Of a stretch of DNA of 58,222 nucleotides, positions 52,756 to 58,222 are shown in pieces. The DNA lies in IMG/VR virus record IMGVR_UViG_3300037069_001350, positions 1 through 58,222 of that record. One strand, written 5' to 3'. Within the stretch, counting starts at the first letter, position 1, and every line of letters starts with the position of its first letter. Origin of the DNA: a virus. Position numbers and translations under genes: made by a program. The notes beneath the pieces are model-generated. The model ran no database searches. It saw only the letters and a program-made list of their open reading frames with translations, and had not been told where the DNA came from.

Positions 52756-54207
52756 GTGGCCGAGCCTTACGACGCCCGGCACATGCGCGACATTCACGAC
52801 GCCGCCCTGGCCGCGCTGATCCCGGCCCGCCTCGTCCGACCGTGGAAGCTGCTGGCCCGCCCGGAGCAGGTCGCCCCGGACGGCGAGTGGCTGGTCTGGA
52901 TATTCCTGGCCGGACGCGGCGCGGGTAAGACACGCTCCGCCGCGGAGCAGGTGTGCGAGTGGGCCGAGGATCACCCCGGCTGCCGCATCGCCCTGGTGGG
53001 CCGCACACCCGCCGACGTCCGTGACGTGATGATCGAGGGCGAGTCCGGCATCCTCGCCTGCTCCGACGACGAGCACCGGCCCGTCTACGAGCCGACGAAG
53101 CGCCGCCTGACCTGGCCGAACGGCTCGACCGCCACCGCCTACTCCGCCGAGGTGCCGTCGGCGCTGCGCGGCCCGCAGCACCACTTCGCCTGGGCCGACG
53201 AGAACGCCGCCTGGTCGGAGGCCCCGAAGGGCGACGTCGTCGACACGGCGTGGAACAACCTCATGCTGGGCCTGCGCCTCGGCCAGTCTCCGCGGTGCAT
53301 CGTCACCACGACCCCGAAGCCGAACCGGCTGATCCGCGACATCCTCGGTCGACGGTCCACCGTCGTCTCGCGCGGGACCACCTACGACAACCTGTCGAAC
53401 CTGGCCCCCGCCTTCCGCGAGCAGGTGCTCGCCACCTACGAAGGCACCCGCATCGGGCGGCAGGAACTGCAGGGCGAACTGCTCGACGACGTCGAGGGTG
53501 CCCTCTGGGGGTCGGCCATGATCGAGGACCACCGCATCCTGCACGGCGACCCGGTACCGGACATGCGCCGCATCGTCGTCGGTGTGGACCCGTCCGGCGG
53601 CTCCGGTCCCGAGAACGACGAGCAGGGCATCGTCGTGGCAGGCATCGGGGTGGACGGCGAGTTCTACGTGCTCGACGACAAGTCCTGCAAGCTGTCGCCG
53701 CACGGCTGGGGCTCACGCGCTGTCGGTGCCTTCGAGCAGTGGGGCGGCGACCGGATCGTGGCCGAGAAGAACTACGGCGGCGAGATGGTGCTGTCGACGA
53801 TCAAGCAGGTCGACTCGAAGGTGCCGGTGAAGCTGGTGTCGGCGAGCCGCGGCAAGGCGGTCCGCGCCGAGCCGATCGCCGCCCTGTACGAGCAGGGCAA
53901 GGTGCACCACGTCGGGTCGTTCCCGCAGTTGGAGGACGAACTGACCACCTGGGCTCCGTTCGACGCGGCCCAGAAGGACTCACCGAACCGGCTGGACGCG
54001 CTCGTGTGGGCGCTGACCGACCTCGCCTTCAACGGCGGGCAGGGCCGGGCGTTCATCGAGCACTGGAAGCGGCAGACCGCGCCCGACCCGGCTGACACCT
54101 CGGCCACCCCCGTGCGTAGCTCGGCACGGAACTGGCGCGAGATCGCCGACCAGATCAAGAAGGAACGCGGCGGTCAGCCGCGCACACGGGAGGACGGACA
54201 TGGCTAA
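52756..54207 (+). CDS. terL: Terminase large subunit
   Basis: 483 residues from GTG 52756. The ATPase has Walker A AGRGAGKT (52-59), then SALRGPQHHFAWADEN with Walker B acidic residues near 148-149, and a coupling motif CIVTTTPKPN. The nuclease has GVDPSGGSGPENDEQG (Asp278) and DSPNRLDALVWAL. It motors DNA into the prohead and cuts concatemers. It overlaps the portal start by eight bases. Confidence 0.92.
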   Translation: MAEPYDARHMRDIHDAALAALIPARLVRPWKLLARPEQVAPDGEWLVWIFLAGRGAGKTRSAAEQVCEWAEDHPGCRIALVGRTPADVRDVMIEGESGILACSDDEHRPVYEPTKRRLTWPNGSTATAYSAEVPSALRGPQHHFAWADENAAWSEAPKGDVVDTAWNNLMLGLRLGQSPRCIVTTTPKPNRLIRDILGRRSTVVSRGTTYDNLSNLAPAFREQVLATYEGTRIGRQELQGELLDDVEGALWGSAMIEDHRILHGDPVPDMRRIVVGVDPSGGSGPENDEQGIVVAGIGVDGEFYVLDDKSCKLSPHGWGSRAVGAFEQWGGDRIVAEKNYGGEMVLSTIKQVDSKVPVKLVSASRGKAVRAEPIAALYEQGKVHHVGSFPQLEDELTTWAPFDAAQKDSPNRLDALVWALTDLAFNGGQGRAFIEHWKRQTAPDPADTSATPVRSSARNWREIADQIKKERGGQPRTREDGHG

Positions 54208-56032
54208 GAACCGCAACCGCCGCCCTGCCGCTCGGGCGCAGGTCGTGAAGAACACCGCGGTCGTGTCGAGCCCGCAGACGCCGCCGGACGTCGAGCAGGC
54301 GCTCGTGGCGCAGGGCATGACCTCGACGTCGCCGTTCGGGCCGGGTACGCCGCTGCGCCCCTACATCGGCATCTCGGTGCCGCCGCGGGTCAACGACTAC
54401 CCGGTCGGCGTGAACATCGCCGTCCGCACCCGCCAGTCGTGGAACCTGATGTCGTTCGACACGATCAAGGCCCTGATCGACGGCTATGACGTGGCCCGCA
54501 TGTGCATCAACCACAAGATCGACGAACTGCGCTCGATGGAACCGATGTTCGTCCCCGCCGACGGGCACTCCGGTGCCGCCGTCGACGCAGCCTGCGACAC
54601 CGCCCGCGCCGCGATGGAGTTCCCTGATAGGGAACTGCCGTTCGACGGGTGGCTGAACAAGCTGATGGAGAACGCGCTGCGCTACGACACCCCGACGCTG
54701 TATCGCCGCCGCAACCTCAACGGCGACGTGATCGGGCTCGACGTCATCGACGGCACCACGATCTACCCCTACATCGACGAGCGTGGCCGCAAGCCCCGGC
54801 CCCCGGCCCCCGCCTACTACCAGCTGATCCACGGCACCGTCTGGGACCACTTCACCTCGAACGACCTGATCTACCAGCCGTTCCGCCCGCAGTCGAACCA
54901 CCCGTACGGCCTCGCGCCGATGGAGTCGCTGCTGCTCACCGCCAACACCGACATCCGGTTCCAGTGGCACTTCATGCAGATGTTCACCGACGGCTCGATC
55001 CCCGGTGGCTTCGTCGAGGTGCCGCCGGACATCTCCTCCCCGGACCAGGTCGCGGAGTGGCAGGACTACTGGGACGCGATGGTCCTCGGCGACCAGGCGA
55101 AGATGCACCAGCTGCTCGCCGTCCCGAACGGCACGAAGGTGACCGGCACGAAGCCGGACGCCTTCGACTCGTCCTTCCCCGAATACCTCATGGCCCGCAC
55201 CTGCGCCGCGTTCGGCGTGGTCCCGCAGGACCTGGGTCTGGTGAAGGACGTGAACCGGGCGAACGGCGAGACGCAGGTCGACATCCAGTTCCGCGTCAAC
55301 ACCCTGCCCTGGGTCCGTTGGATCGAGGGAATCGCCACCCGCTACCTCCGGTATGACCTGGGTCTGCCGGTGAAGATGCAGCTGGACACGGGCCGCGACA
55401 AGGAAGATCGACTGTCCGAGGCGCAGGCGTGGCAGATTTACGTGCAGTCCGGCTTCGCCTCCGCTGACGAGGCCCGGCAGGAACTGCTCGGCTTGGAGAT
55501 CGACTCCGAGCGCCCGGTGCCCCGCTTCGTGCTCGACCCCCGCACGGGTCCGATCCCGCTGGCGAACATCGAGGCGATCGCCGGTCGCATCGACCCGGAG
55601 ACTGCCGCGCCGGTCGACGACCAGCCGCTGCCCACGGAGCCGTTCAACGGTGCCGAGGGTGTGCTGCCGGACAAGGCCCCCGGCGGGACGCAGTTCAAGC
55701 GCGCCCCGATCAACCCGGACGAGCCCCGCTTCCCCGAGATGGAGAAGCCGATCCCCGGCACCGACGTCGTCGGCACCCGGCCCGGCACCCCTGTCATCGG
55801 CGACCCCGGCGTCACGGAGGACTCGAAGCTGACCGAGCCGGTCGGCAAGGCCCTCGACCCGGCTGCCGCGGAGATGCAGGCGTTCAGCCGGTTCTGCAAG
55901 GCGCGCGCCCGTGCTGGCCGCTGGCGCGACTTCGAGTTCGAGCACGTCCCCGCGGGGATCGCTCGGGCGCTGAACGAGCACCACCGCGAGAGGATCACGA
56001 AGGCGGCTGATGCCGCCCCTTTCGCCCGGTAG
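54200..56032 (+). CDS. Portal protein
   Basis: 610 residues. Portal features: RTRQSWNLMSFDTIKALIDG, WLNKLMENALRYDTPTLYRR, LIYQPFRPQSNHPYGLAPME, GSIPGGFVEVPPDISSPDQV and EYLMARTCAAFGVVPQDLGL. The C-terminal ~150 residues are Pro-rich and probably disordered. The last codons, GCC-CCT-TTC-GCC-CGG-TAG, contain a -1 slippery heptamer that would extend some molecules into the NUDIX frame. Confidence 0.9.
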   Translation: MAKNRNRRPAARAQVVKNTAVVSSPQTPPDVEQALVAQGMTSTSPFGPGTPLRPYIGISVPPRVNDYPVGVNIAVRTRQSWNLMSFDTIKALIDGYDVARMCINHKIDELRSMEPMFVPADGHSGAAVDAACDTARAAMEFPDRELPFDGWLNKLMENALRYDTPTLYRRRNLNGDVIGLDVIDGTTIYPYIDERGRKPRPPAPAYYQLIHGTVWDHFTSNDLIYQPFRPQSNHPYGLAPMESLLLTANTDIRFQWHFMQMFTDGSIPGGFVEVPPDISSPDQVAEWQDYWDAMVLGDQAKMHQLLAVPNGTKVTGTKPDAFDSSFPEYLMARTCAAFGVVPQDLGLVKDVNRANGETQVDIQFRVNTLPWVRWIEGIATRYLRYDLGLPVKMQLDTGRDKEDRLSEAQAWQIYVQSGFASADEARQELLGLEIDSERPVPRFVLDPRTGPIPLANIEAIAGRIDPETAAPVDDQPLPTEPFNGAEGVLPDKAPGGTQFKRAPINPDEPRFPEMEKPIPGTDVVGTRPGTPVIGDPGVTEDSKLTEPVGKALDPAAAEMQAFSRFCKARARAGRWRDFEFEHVPAGIARALNEHHRERITKAADAAPFAR

Positions 56033-56041
56033 CCGCCGGGC
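56017..56041 (+). promoter_or_regulatory. Programmed -1 frameshift site, portal to NUDIX
   Basis: C-CCT-TTC at 56017-56023 is XXXYYYZ in exact portal phase (P-site CCT, A-site TTC). GCCCGG (56024-56029) pairs with CCGGGC (56036-56041) around the stop codon. After a -1 slip the frame reads FRPVAAGLAVQAADTGRVLM and joins the NUDIX gene without a stop. Confidence 0.6.
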
Positions 56042-56046
56042 TCGCC

Positions 56047-57321
56047 GTGCAGGCCGCGGACACGGGTCGTGTCCTCATGCTGCAGCGGTCGATGAACGAC
56101 CCGTCGACCGCTACGGCAGGCATGTGGGAGTTCCCCGGCGGCTGCCTCGAAGCGGGTGAGTCCACCCGCGTCGGGGCGATGCGCGAATGGTGCGAGGAGG
56201 TCGGCCAGCTGCTGCCTCGTGGCGAACTGGCTGGCAGCTGGCGCACGCAGGTCTACGAGGGCCACGTCTGGTCGATCCCGTCCGAGGACGACATCGACCT
56301 GCTGGACCGGGACACGGTGAGCAACCCGGACGACCCGGACGGCGACGACATCGAGTCGATCGCCTGGTGGTCCCCGGAGCACCTGATCGGCAACCCCGCG
56401 GTCCGCACCGAACTGGCTGCGAGCCTCGACGTGGTGCTGCCCACCCTCGGTGTCGACCCGGTCGAGAAGTCGACCGACGACGACTGGCACGCCCACCCTG
56501 ACCGGCACGTCGAGCAGGCCCTCACCGGCTTCCACTCGCAGAACGTGCACGCCGCGATGGGCGACATGGTCACGCTCGACCAGCTGCGCGAGGTGGCTCG
56601 TAGCTACCTGGCGATCCACCGCCAGCCGGTCGTGAAGTTCGACGGGCAGGCCCGCGACGCCAACGGCAGGTTCGCCGCTGGCGGCATGGGTGGCAACGAC
56701 TCGGGCTCGAAGTCGTCGGGCTCGGGCTCGGCAGGCTCGGGCTCGGCAGGCGGCTACGCGGAGATCACCGCCGCTGACCTGCAGGCTGGCGACGGGTCGG
56801 CGAACAGCCGGGCCGTGTCGTCGAGCGAGTTCCAGGCGCTCGCCGCCGAGGGTCACGCCTCGATGGACGCCCGGATCGCCGCCTCGTCCCCGCCCACGGG
56901 GATCAGCAGCAACCTGGACGCGGTGAAGGCCAGCAGCTACGCCTCGGTGCAGGAGTCGTGGGGCGGCACCACGATCGACGCCCACACCGGCGCGCCGGTC
57001 GCGAGCAACGGGGCGAACGCCTACGCGCTCTCGATCAAGCCCGCCGGGGTGGCCTCGGTCAGCATCCCCGAGAACGCCACCGCGGCCCAGTTCGGGTCGG
57101 CGATGGACTCGGCGATGTCGCAGTTCCATGACCAGCTGTCGATCGCTGGCGCTCACCTCGGCGTGTTCCACAACGACGCAGGCGGCACCATCGAGATCGA
57201 CCCGACCCTGGTGGTCGGATCGCTGCACGAGGTCGAGACGATCGGCGCGTACACGCACGCCGTCGGCGGCGCGTACAACTTCGCCGACGGCAACGGCTAC
57301 TGGCCCCCGCACGTCGCCTGA
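56047..57321 (+). CDS. NUDIX hydrolase fused to a phage structural-type C-terminal domain
   Basis: 424 residues if GTG 56047 is used. The NUDIX box is complete: GCLEAGE ... REWCEEVGQ, after AGMWEFPGG. The usual first strand (AAGLAV) lies upstream of GTG in the same open frame, which has no other start, so the N-terminus is short unless made by frameshift from the portal. A linker DANGRFAAGGMGG and Gly/Ser repeats (~220-240) lead to a C-terminal domain (FHNDAGGTIEIDPTLVVGSL, GAYTHAVGGAYNFADGNGYW) of a kind seen in phage head-region proteins. Confidence 0.75.
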   Translation: MQAADTGRVLMLQRSMNDPSTATAGMWEFPGGCLEAGESTRVGAMREWCEEVGQLLPRGELAGSWRTQVYEGHVWSIPSEDDIDLLDRDTVSNPDDPDGDDIESIAWWSPEHLIGNPAVRTELAASLDVVLPTLGVDPVEKSTDDDWHAHPDRHVEQALTGFHSQNVHAAMGDMVTLDQLREVARSYLAIHRQPVVKFDGQARDANGRFAAGGMGGNDSGSKSSGSGSAGSGSAGGYAEITAADLQAGDGSANSRAVSSSEFQALAAEGHASMDARIAASSPPTGISSNLDAVKASSYASVQESWGGTTIDAHTGAPVASNGANAYALSIKPAGVASVSIPENATAAQFGSAMDSAMSQFHDQLSIAGAHLGVFHNDAGGTIEIDPTLVVGSLHEVETIGAYTHAVGGAYNFADGNGYWPPHVA

Positions 57322-57979: not shown

Positions 57980-58222
57980 ATGTCCGCACCGCAGCCGAAG
58001 CCCGACGCCGTACTGGAACAGCTGCCCGCCCCGCACGAGGCGAAGCCGCAGCCCGACGTCTCCGAGCCCGCCGAGGTCACCCGCGCCCGCGAGTTCCTGC
58101 GCGACCACCTGCACCTCGACACGACGACCTTGAAGGACGCGCTGGCCGCGGTCTACGGGGACGCCTACTCGTCCGGCGTGCTGGCCGGTCTGCAGCTGGA
58201 CGGCAGCGCGAACCCGGTGCCC
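57980..58222 (+). CDS. MuF-like head protein, 5' part (continues at base 2)
   Basis: 81 codons from ATG 57980: a Pro/Ala-rich start (SAPQPKPDAVLEQLPAPHEA), then EVTRAREFLRDHLHLDTTTL. The last 42 codons equal those at 2-127, so the gene continues at the beginning of the window to 1189. CTGGGGAGGG is just upstream. Confidence 0.85.
   Translation, partial: MSAPQPKPDAVLEQLPAPHEAKPQPDVSEPAEVTRAREFLRDHLHLDTTTLKDALAAVYGDAYSSGVLAGLQLDGSANPVP
58097..58222 (+). repeat. Terminal overlap: identical to bases 2-127
   Basis: All 126 bases match 2-127; the base before differs (a at 1, c at 58096). The length is close to a common assembly k-mer, so this is best read as the overlap of a circular or circularly permuted assembly rather than a physical repeat. 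Map length is 58,095 bases. Confidence 0.85.

Follow-up and report, generated by a model that had tools for sequence, protein, structure and literature searches.

A likely programmed -1 frameshift site between the portal and NUDIX reading frames of a viral genome, and a conserved probable slip site at the cargo junctions of related portal genes

Introduction

In the window analysed here, i.e. the whole stretch of 58,222 nucleotides of the virus record IMGVR_UViG_3300037069_001350, a portal gene overlaps by 22 nt a reading frame that encodes a NUDIX domain and lies in the -1 frame. How is this NUDIX domain translated? According to an earlier note based on sequence alone, a -1 frameshift at the heptamer CCCTTTC connects portal and NUDIX. 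This reading has held as the best explanation, with strong comparative support and without protein data. In our view CCCTTTC is likely to act as a programmed -1 frameshift site in the portal gene, by which the NUDIX frame is joined; slippage in vivo is inferred.

The window has a terminal overlap of 126 bp (positions 2-127 and 58097-58222), and the contig therefore represents a complete genome of ~58.1 kb that is circular or circularly permuted.

Results

Anatomy of the portal-NUDIX junction

The portal ORF (54200-56032, + strand) yields a zero-frame product of 610 aa with matches to PF04860 (E 8.6e-20) and phrog_2662 (E 4e-43). The match to the PF04860 portal domain identifies the product as a tailed-phage portal. 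The codons at the 3' end of the gene are ...GAT GCC GCC CCT TTC GCC CGG TAG, with the slippery heptamer C-CCT-TTC at 56017-56023 (+ strand) and the portal stop TAG at 56030-56032 (+ strand). The claim that the heptamer lies in the exact phase of the portal gene was confirmed by the sequence; the distance of nine bases to the stop, given at the same time, counts from the TTC codon, and only 6 bases separate heptamer and TAG.

The -1 frame is closed upstream by a TGA (56008-56010, + strand) and stays open from 56011 until it meets a stop codon at 57319-57321; it reads PFRPVAAGLAVQAADTGRVLM. It thus enters the NUDIX region without a stop, as had been claimed. With the in-phase background of these ORFs (16 heptamers per 64,306 codons), the probability of finding an in-phase heptamer by chance in the 7-codon overlap is ~0.002. 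The portal stop is the sole ORF end on the + strand of the window that combines an in-phase heptamer with a -1 extension of >=60 aa. A scan of the + strand ORF ends revealed no tail-chaperone frameshift or other frameshift-type heptamer that could serve as an internal comparator. A plain portal-NUDIX fusion was ruled out for the window, as the frames differ.

The -1 frame extension (56023-57321, + strand) comprises the NUDIX domain and a C-terminal part of 291 aa (56446-57318), which has no Pfam match and ends with HAVGGAYNFADGNGYWPPHVA. The resulting fusion product would have 1040 aa. After the slip the -1 frame stays open for 432 codons, and an early stop of the dnaX type is therefore not found here. 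The portal polypeptide lacks a MuF domain. MuF is encoded by a gene of its own (57980-58222, continuing across the circular join to 2-1189, + strand; 434 aa) with a good ribosome site; it matches PF04233 with an E-value of 0.00039, which is under the curated cut-off, as well as phrog_115 and phrog_2662. A search of the window against Rfam gave no match to a conserved RNA family.

The NUDIX domain and its possible start codon

The NUDIX domain (56026-56403, + strand) was assigned by PF00293 (E 6.1e-18; Pfam E 1.9e-15 in another search). The domain was modelled with AlphaFold on the basis of 12 homologues (pLDDT 86.7). Its best PDB matches, NUDT15, RppH and ADP-ribose pyrophosphatase, do not fix the substrate.

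The only candidate start codon is a GTG at 56047-56049 (+ strand), for which an anti-SD duplex of -2.3 kcal/mol was calculated. For comparison, the duplex is -10.3 kcal/mol at the portal ATG and -5 to -11 kcal/mol at most starts checked in the genome. Between the upstream TGA and this GTG the -1 frame contains no ATG, GTG or TTG, and an ATG at 56010 was discarded because it is in the wrong frame. In the AlphaFold model strand 1 of the domain spans residues 4-11 as counted in the -1 frame; residue 9, within this strand, is the one encoded by the GTG, so that a start at GTG drops five of the eight strand residues. The strand 1 residues AAGLAVQA encoded 5' of GTG 56047 match the in-frame relatives. 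The NUDIX fold is complete only when the -1 frame is read from upstream of the GTG. Two further claims of the earlier note have thus held, namely the loss of the first strand upon a start at GTG 56047 and the absence of any other start codon between the upstream stop and the GTG.

Possible stimulatory elements

An SD-like element (AAGGCGG, 56000-56006, + strand) is located ~13 nt 5' of the heptamer. Its anti-SD duplex amounts to -7.3 kcal/mol, compared to a mean of -2.2 kcal/mol for control positions within this gene. The sites of the family as a whole likewise show stronger upstream SD-like pairing than control codons (-5.5 vs. -2.9 kcal/mol, p 1e-19). The 50 nt downstream of the family sites are more structured than those at controls (-20.1 vs. 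-14.8, p 5e-20), also when judged against dinucleotide shuffles (mean z of -1.32 vs. -0.19 at controls, p 7e-11).

For the window itself, the downstream structure is the weakest part of the frameshift case. A 6-bp hairpin (GCCCGG-TAGCCG-CCGGGC, 56024-56041, + strand; arms 56024-56029 and 56036-56041) carries the portal stop in its loop. The arms are real, as claimed; a stimulator role is not shown. The hairpin begins at spacer 0 from the heptamer, whereas a spacing of 5-9 nt is expected of a downstream stimulator, and hairpin and downstream structure are no better than shuffled sequence (z -0.84 and -0.34). We therefore rejected it as a clear stimulator.

The motif C_CC.U_UU.C belongs to the H_HH.U_UU.Y class, which is among the most efficient shifters measured in E. 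coli (PMC4066793). The same holds for the V_VV.A_AA.R class, to which CCCAAAA, GGGAAAA and AAAAAAA belong (PMC4066793). These efficiencies were determined in E. coli and not in the host of the window.

Portal-NUDIX fusions among the relatives

Portal and NUDIX searches yielded 245 portal-bearing loci, 139 of which were distinct once exact duplicates had been removed. Portal and NUDIX are found in one uninterrupted ORF in 107 of the 119 loci with both domains (redundant set), and the cultured Arthrobacter phages Sonali and Mufasa8 are among these plain fusions. Prophage-type loci in genomes of Subtercola, Arthrobacter and Pseudarthrobacter are portal-MuF fusions, two of them with NUDIX. Nudix domains fused to portal and MuF proteins have already been described as plain fusions (PMC9503650).

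Since most NUDIX-bearing relatives are plain ORFs, the exact CCCTTTC at the portal-NUDIX junction is not conserved. In the nearest relatives of the window portal and NUDIX are fused in frame, and the slip site is placed after NUDIX. No homologue with the same heptamer, junction and split was found apart from the near-identical L002/L256. The junction of L002, a second assembly (IMGVR_UViG_3300036652_000273), is identical to that of the window; being a near-identical genome, it was not accepted as independent evolutionary evidence. The comparison of homologous junctions that the earlier note had called for thus gives a divided answer: plain fusion is usual and the exact CCCTTTC is not conserved, while a slip cassette is conserved at the cargo junctions.

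Several loci deviate in other ways. A stretch of 20 bp between GCCCCG repeats (window 55703-55722) is absent in L002, the portal tail of which is broken; this deletion in the portal linker indicates that indels, real or from assembly, do occur in the portal gene. The portal core of L062 is frame-broken (L062:2500-2760), and its CCCAAAA before MuF seems to be in phase with the frame 3' of the break. In L013 the NUDIX of a portal-NUDIX gene is broken by ~520 nt (L013:2515-3042) and resumes in another frame; this interruption had no match in Rfam. The slot between portal and MuF appears as a cargo site in L016, L017-L020, L021, L025 and L029, where NUDIX is replaced or preceded. The slot holds a 2H phosphoesterase in L016 (by Pfam) and a similar sequence in L021, L025 and L029, and in L017-L020 a ParB-like domain, judged by eye.

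A conserved probable slip site before MuF

For 99 distinct loci anchored at MuF we analyzed the linker preceding this domain. It contains 76 in-phase -1 heptamers as compared to 0 and 3 in the other phases (2.1 expected; p 1e-32 for the phase bias), most of them CCCAAAA. Elsewhere in the same ORFs the phases are equally populated, with 16, 15 and 14 heptamers in 64,306 codons. Because the loci were gathered by protein similarity and not by heptamer, the enrichment is not circular. As related loci are not fully independent, we also counted clusters: the site is present in 70 of the 94 clusters formed at 95% identity, and at 75% in 41 of 61. The Pro-Lys of the linker is encoded by CCA-AAA in 57 of 67 cases, compared to 2 of 94 elsewhere (p 2e-30). 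In fused loci a -1 stop follows the heptamer after a median of 4 codons (91% within 9), whereas the background value is 45 codons (15%). The fused relatives therefore fulfill the early -1 stop criterion known from dnaX. Taken at family level, the conserved site is very likely a -1 frameshift site, with the reservation that neither expression nor protein data exist.

Two cultured phages carry this site without annotation. Gene 3 of Sonali (L003:4354-4360, MK411746) and gene 3 of Mufasa8 (L004:4347-4353, NC_049478) have an in-phase CCCAAAA at the NUDIX-MuF junction and a -1 stop 9 codons past it, from which a second product of ~748 aa (Sonali) or ~749 aa (Mufasa8) is predicted, next to full-length products of 995 and 1000 aa, respectively.

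The heptamer before MuF is absent in 25 of the 99 anchored loci. Six of these 25 have one before NUDIX, L218 has AAAAAAA before NUDIX, and 18 loci remain without a recognised heptamer. In five of the 18 (L012, L128, L145, L149 and L159) MuF occupies the +1 frame when counted from the portal ORF that precedes it, possibly because of separate starts or another type of shift. The +1-frame MuF overlaps the portal ORF by 53-107 nt in L012, L128, L145 and L159; L149 has no overlap.

Split relatives with swapped frames

Twelve further relatives are split like the window, all of them with in-phase heptamers. In L164 (= L165), L170, L174 and L181 portal and NUDIX are in a -1 relation, and an in-phase GGGAAAA precedes the last base of the portal stop by 21-30 nt. 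The heptamer lies between portal-NUDIX and MuF in L008/L030, L047, L058 and L115 (CCCAAAA) as well as in L155 (CCCTTTC), and between portal and MuF in L160, L163 and L182. CCCTTTC is present at the junctions of L155, L148 and L186. None of the 12 split relatives has a credible start codon from which the downstream domain, in the -1 frame, could be reached; the TTG/GTG codons of L170 and L174 are distant (93-180 nt upstream) and lie within the portal. With the frames swapped in this manner, the fusion would be made only by a -1 shift.

In a set of 76 loci anchored at NUDIX, a heptamer precedes the domain in phase in 7 cases and out of phase in 1 (p 0.003). The seven are the window and L148 (both CCCTTTC), L164, L170, L174, L181 and L171; none of those that could also be anchored at MuF shows a second site before that domain. 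Heptamers directly before NUDIX that were missed by the anchor occur in L188, L031 and L218, and L188 has a second one before MuF. The window thus belongs to the split type with the slip before NUDIX, as do L164 and L181. In the portal tree it groups with the split loci L008/L030/L047 (SH-aLRT 87), and the fused or split state has changed at least 8 times. The tree was calculated by a quick method and its deep branches are weak.

Discussion

Alternative explanations

Sequence anatomy, conservation, phase, stop placement and swapped frames are all shown and support the frameshift reading. The alternative that survives best, though we regard it as unlikely, is a one-base indel (an assembly error or a real mutation) which split an ordinary portal-NUDIX fusion, C and T runs being prone to indels. 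In its favor, nearly all relatives are plain in-frame fusions, the window junction exceeds that of the relatives by a net 11 nt (KA..AAGLAV spacing), the portal of L062 is broken by an indel without a heptamer, and L002 has the frame-breaking 20-bp deletion nearby. On the other hand, the junction is identical in the second assembly of a near-identical genome, and an error need not yield an in-phase heptamer of an efficient class together with an SD-like element 13 nt upstream. Furthermore, the nearest clade (L008, L047) is likewise split and has the slip cassette, and all 12 further split relatives have their heptamer in phase.

A second alternative, a separate NUDIX gene that starts at GTG 56047 (or ATG 56077) and is coupled to the portal stop, is very unlikely. 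Coupled starts are common in phages, and the in-frame GTG is situated 15 nt past the portal stop. The anti-SD pairing of this codon is, however, weak next to that of most genome starts checked. Most of strand 1 would be lost although its residues are encoded just 5' and match the relatives, in whose terms the GTG is a plain valine codon of AAGLAV.

That the heptamers merely reflect a conserved Pro-Lys linker, which most sites do encode, can be all but excluded given the skewed CCA-AAA codon choice, the other heptamers (GGGAAAA, AAAAAAA, CCCTTTA/C) at the equivalent place, the -1 stops a median of 4 codons on and the swapped frames of the split loci.

Proposed mechanism

For the preferred reading, -1 frameshifting at CCCTTTC, we propose the following mechanism. 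Ribosomes on the portal mRNA would reach C-CCU-UUC while the SD-like element upstream is in contact. tRNA-Pro and tRNA-Phe would then move back by one base and pair with CCC and UUU. The fraction of ribosomes that shifts would bypass the stop 6 nt on and produce the 1040-aa portal-NUDIX protein; the remainder would yield the 610-aa portal. If both forms are able to enter the ring, a fixed share of the subunits would carry the enzyme, which would sit on the C-terminal side of the portal and face the interior of the head. The slippage in vivo, the ratio, the mixed rings, the location inside the head and the delivery or action of NUDIX are all inferred. Published proposals for NUDIX are that it is packaged in the head and that it acts on nucleotide signals (PMC9503650).

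Across the family, a slip site where portal (or portal-NUDIX) meets its cargo would set the ratio of cargo-bearing to cargo-free portals. Fused relatives would make the long form in the zero frame and the short one by the shift; split relatives, including the window, would make the short form in the zero frame and the long one by the shift. Since the frame for the long product is swapped among relatives, the more abundant form could be either of the two, and the suggestion that the fusion is minor is not shown. That lineages freely swap this frame suggests that selection acts on having both forms together in a ratio. Whether mixed portal rings are the purpose of the slip, we cannot decide either way. 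A bolder reading, likely in our view but without protein data, is that a large, mostly metagenomic phage family, including cultured Arthrobacter phages and actinobacterial prophages, fixes the number of cargo-bearing portal subunits by a conserved -1 slip, the cargo being MuF, NUDIX or 2H enzymes.

Relation to known systems

The family site resembles that of E. coli dnaX in its heptamer, the SD-like element upstream and the structure enriched downstream, and in the fused relatives the shift likewise leads to a shorter protein that ends soon past the site. dnaX, however, encodes a polymerase clamp loader and not a phage portal, and the frames are reversed in the window and the 12 split relatives, where the shift gives the longer protein. 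A -1 slip in a phage structural gene that produces a short and a C-terminally extended form is also found in the lambda tail assembly chaperone gpG/gpGT and in the capsid frameshifts of T7 gene 10 and Lactobacillus phage A2; here the gene is that of the portal, and the extension is an enzyme or a MuF domain.

Plain portal-Nudix, portal-2H and portal-MuF fusions (PMC9503650, PMC5512222) share the domains and their order, and packaging of the enzyme in the head has been proposed. They were described as ordinary fusions, however, and no frameshift was noted; gene 3 of Sonali is annotated as 'portal and MuF-like fusion protein'. By analogy, few copies of the SPP1 MuF protein gp7 reach the head via the portal gp6 (PMC6316719). 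The two SPP1 proteins are separate and bound non-covalently, whereas the portal studied here would be linked to its cargo covalently, and the ribosome would determine how often. The PRFect study (PMC10885494) remarked on VIP2 ART/MuF-like gene pairs that genes fused in some phages may frameshift when split, but mentions neither portal genes nor a conserved site or evidence.

In the open-access literature searched, no description of frameshifting in portal genes came to light, which is not proof of absence. A major recoding review (PMC5009743) does not mention portal or MuF in the part searched. The earlier note knew of no described example; for a portal frameshift this holds as far as we could find, while plain portal-Nudix fusions are already described (PMC9503650). 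Portal fusions as such are already known; what is probably new is the conserved slip site in portal genes.

If this interpretation is true, the portal gene has to be added to the few phage structural genes under frameshift control, and genes annotated as 'portal-MuF fusion', like the ones in Sonali and Mufasa8, would make two proteins. The supposedly uniform 12-subunit ring would hold two kinds of subunits in a ratio set by translation, which would provide a mechanism by which enzymes or MuF domains are loaded in limited number at the vertex of the head.
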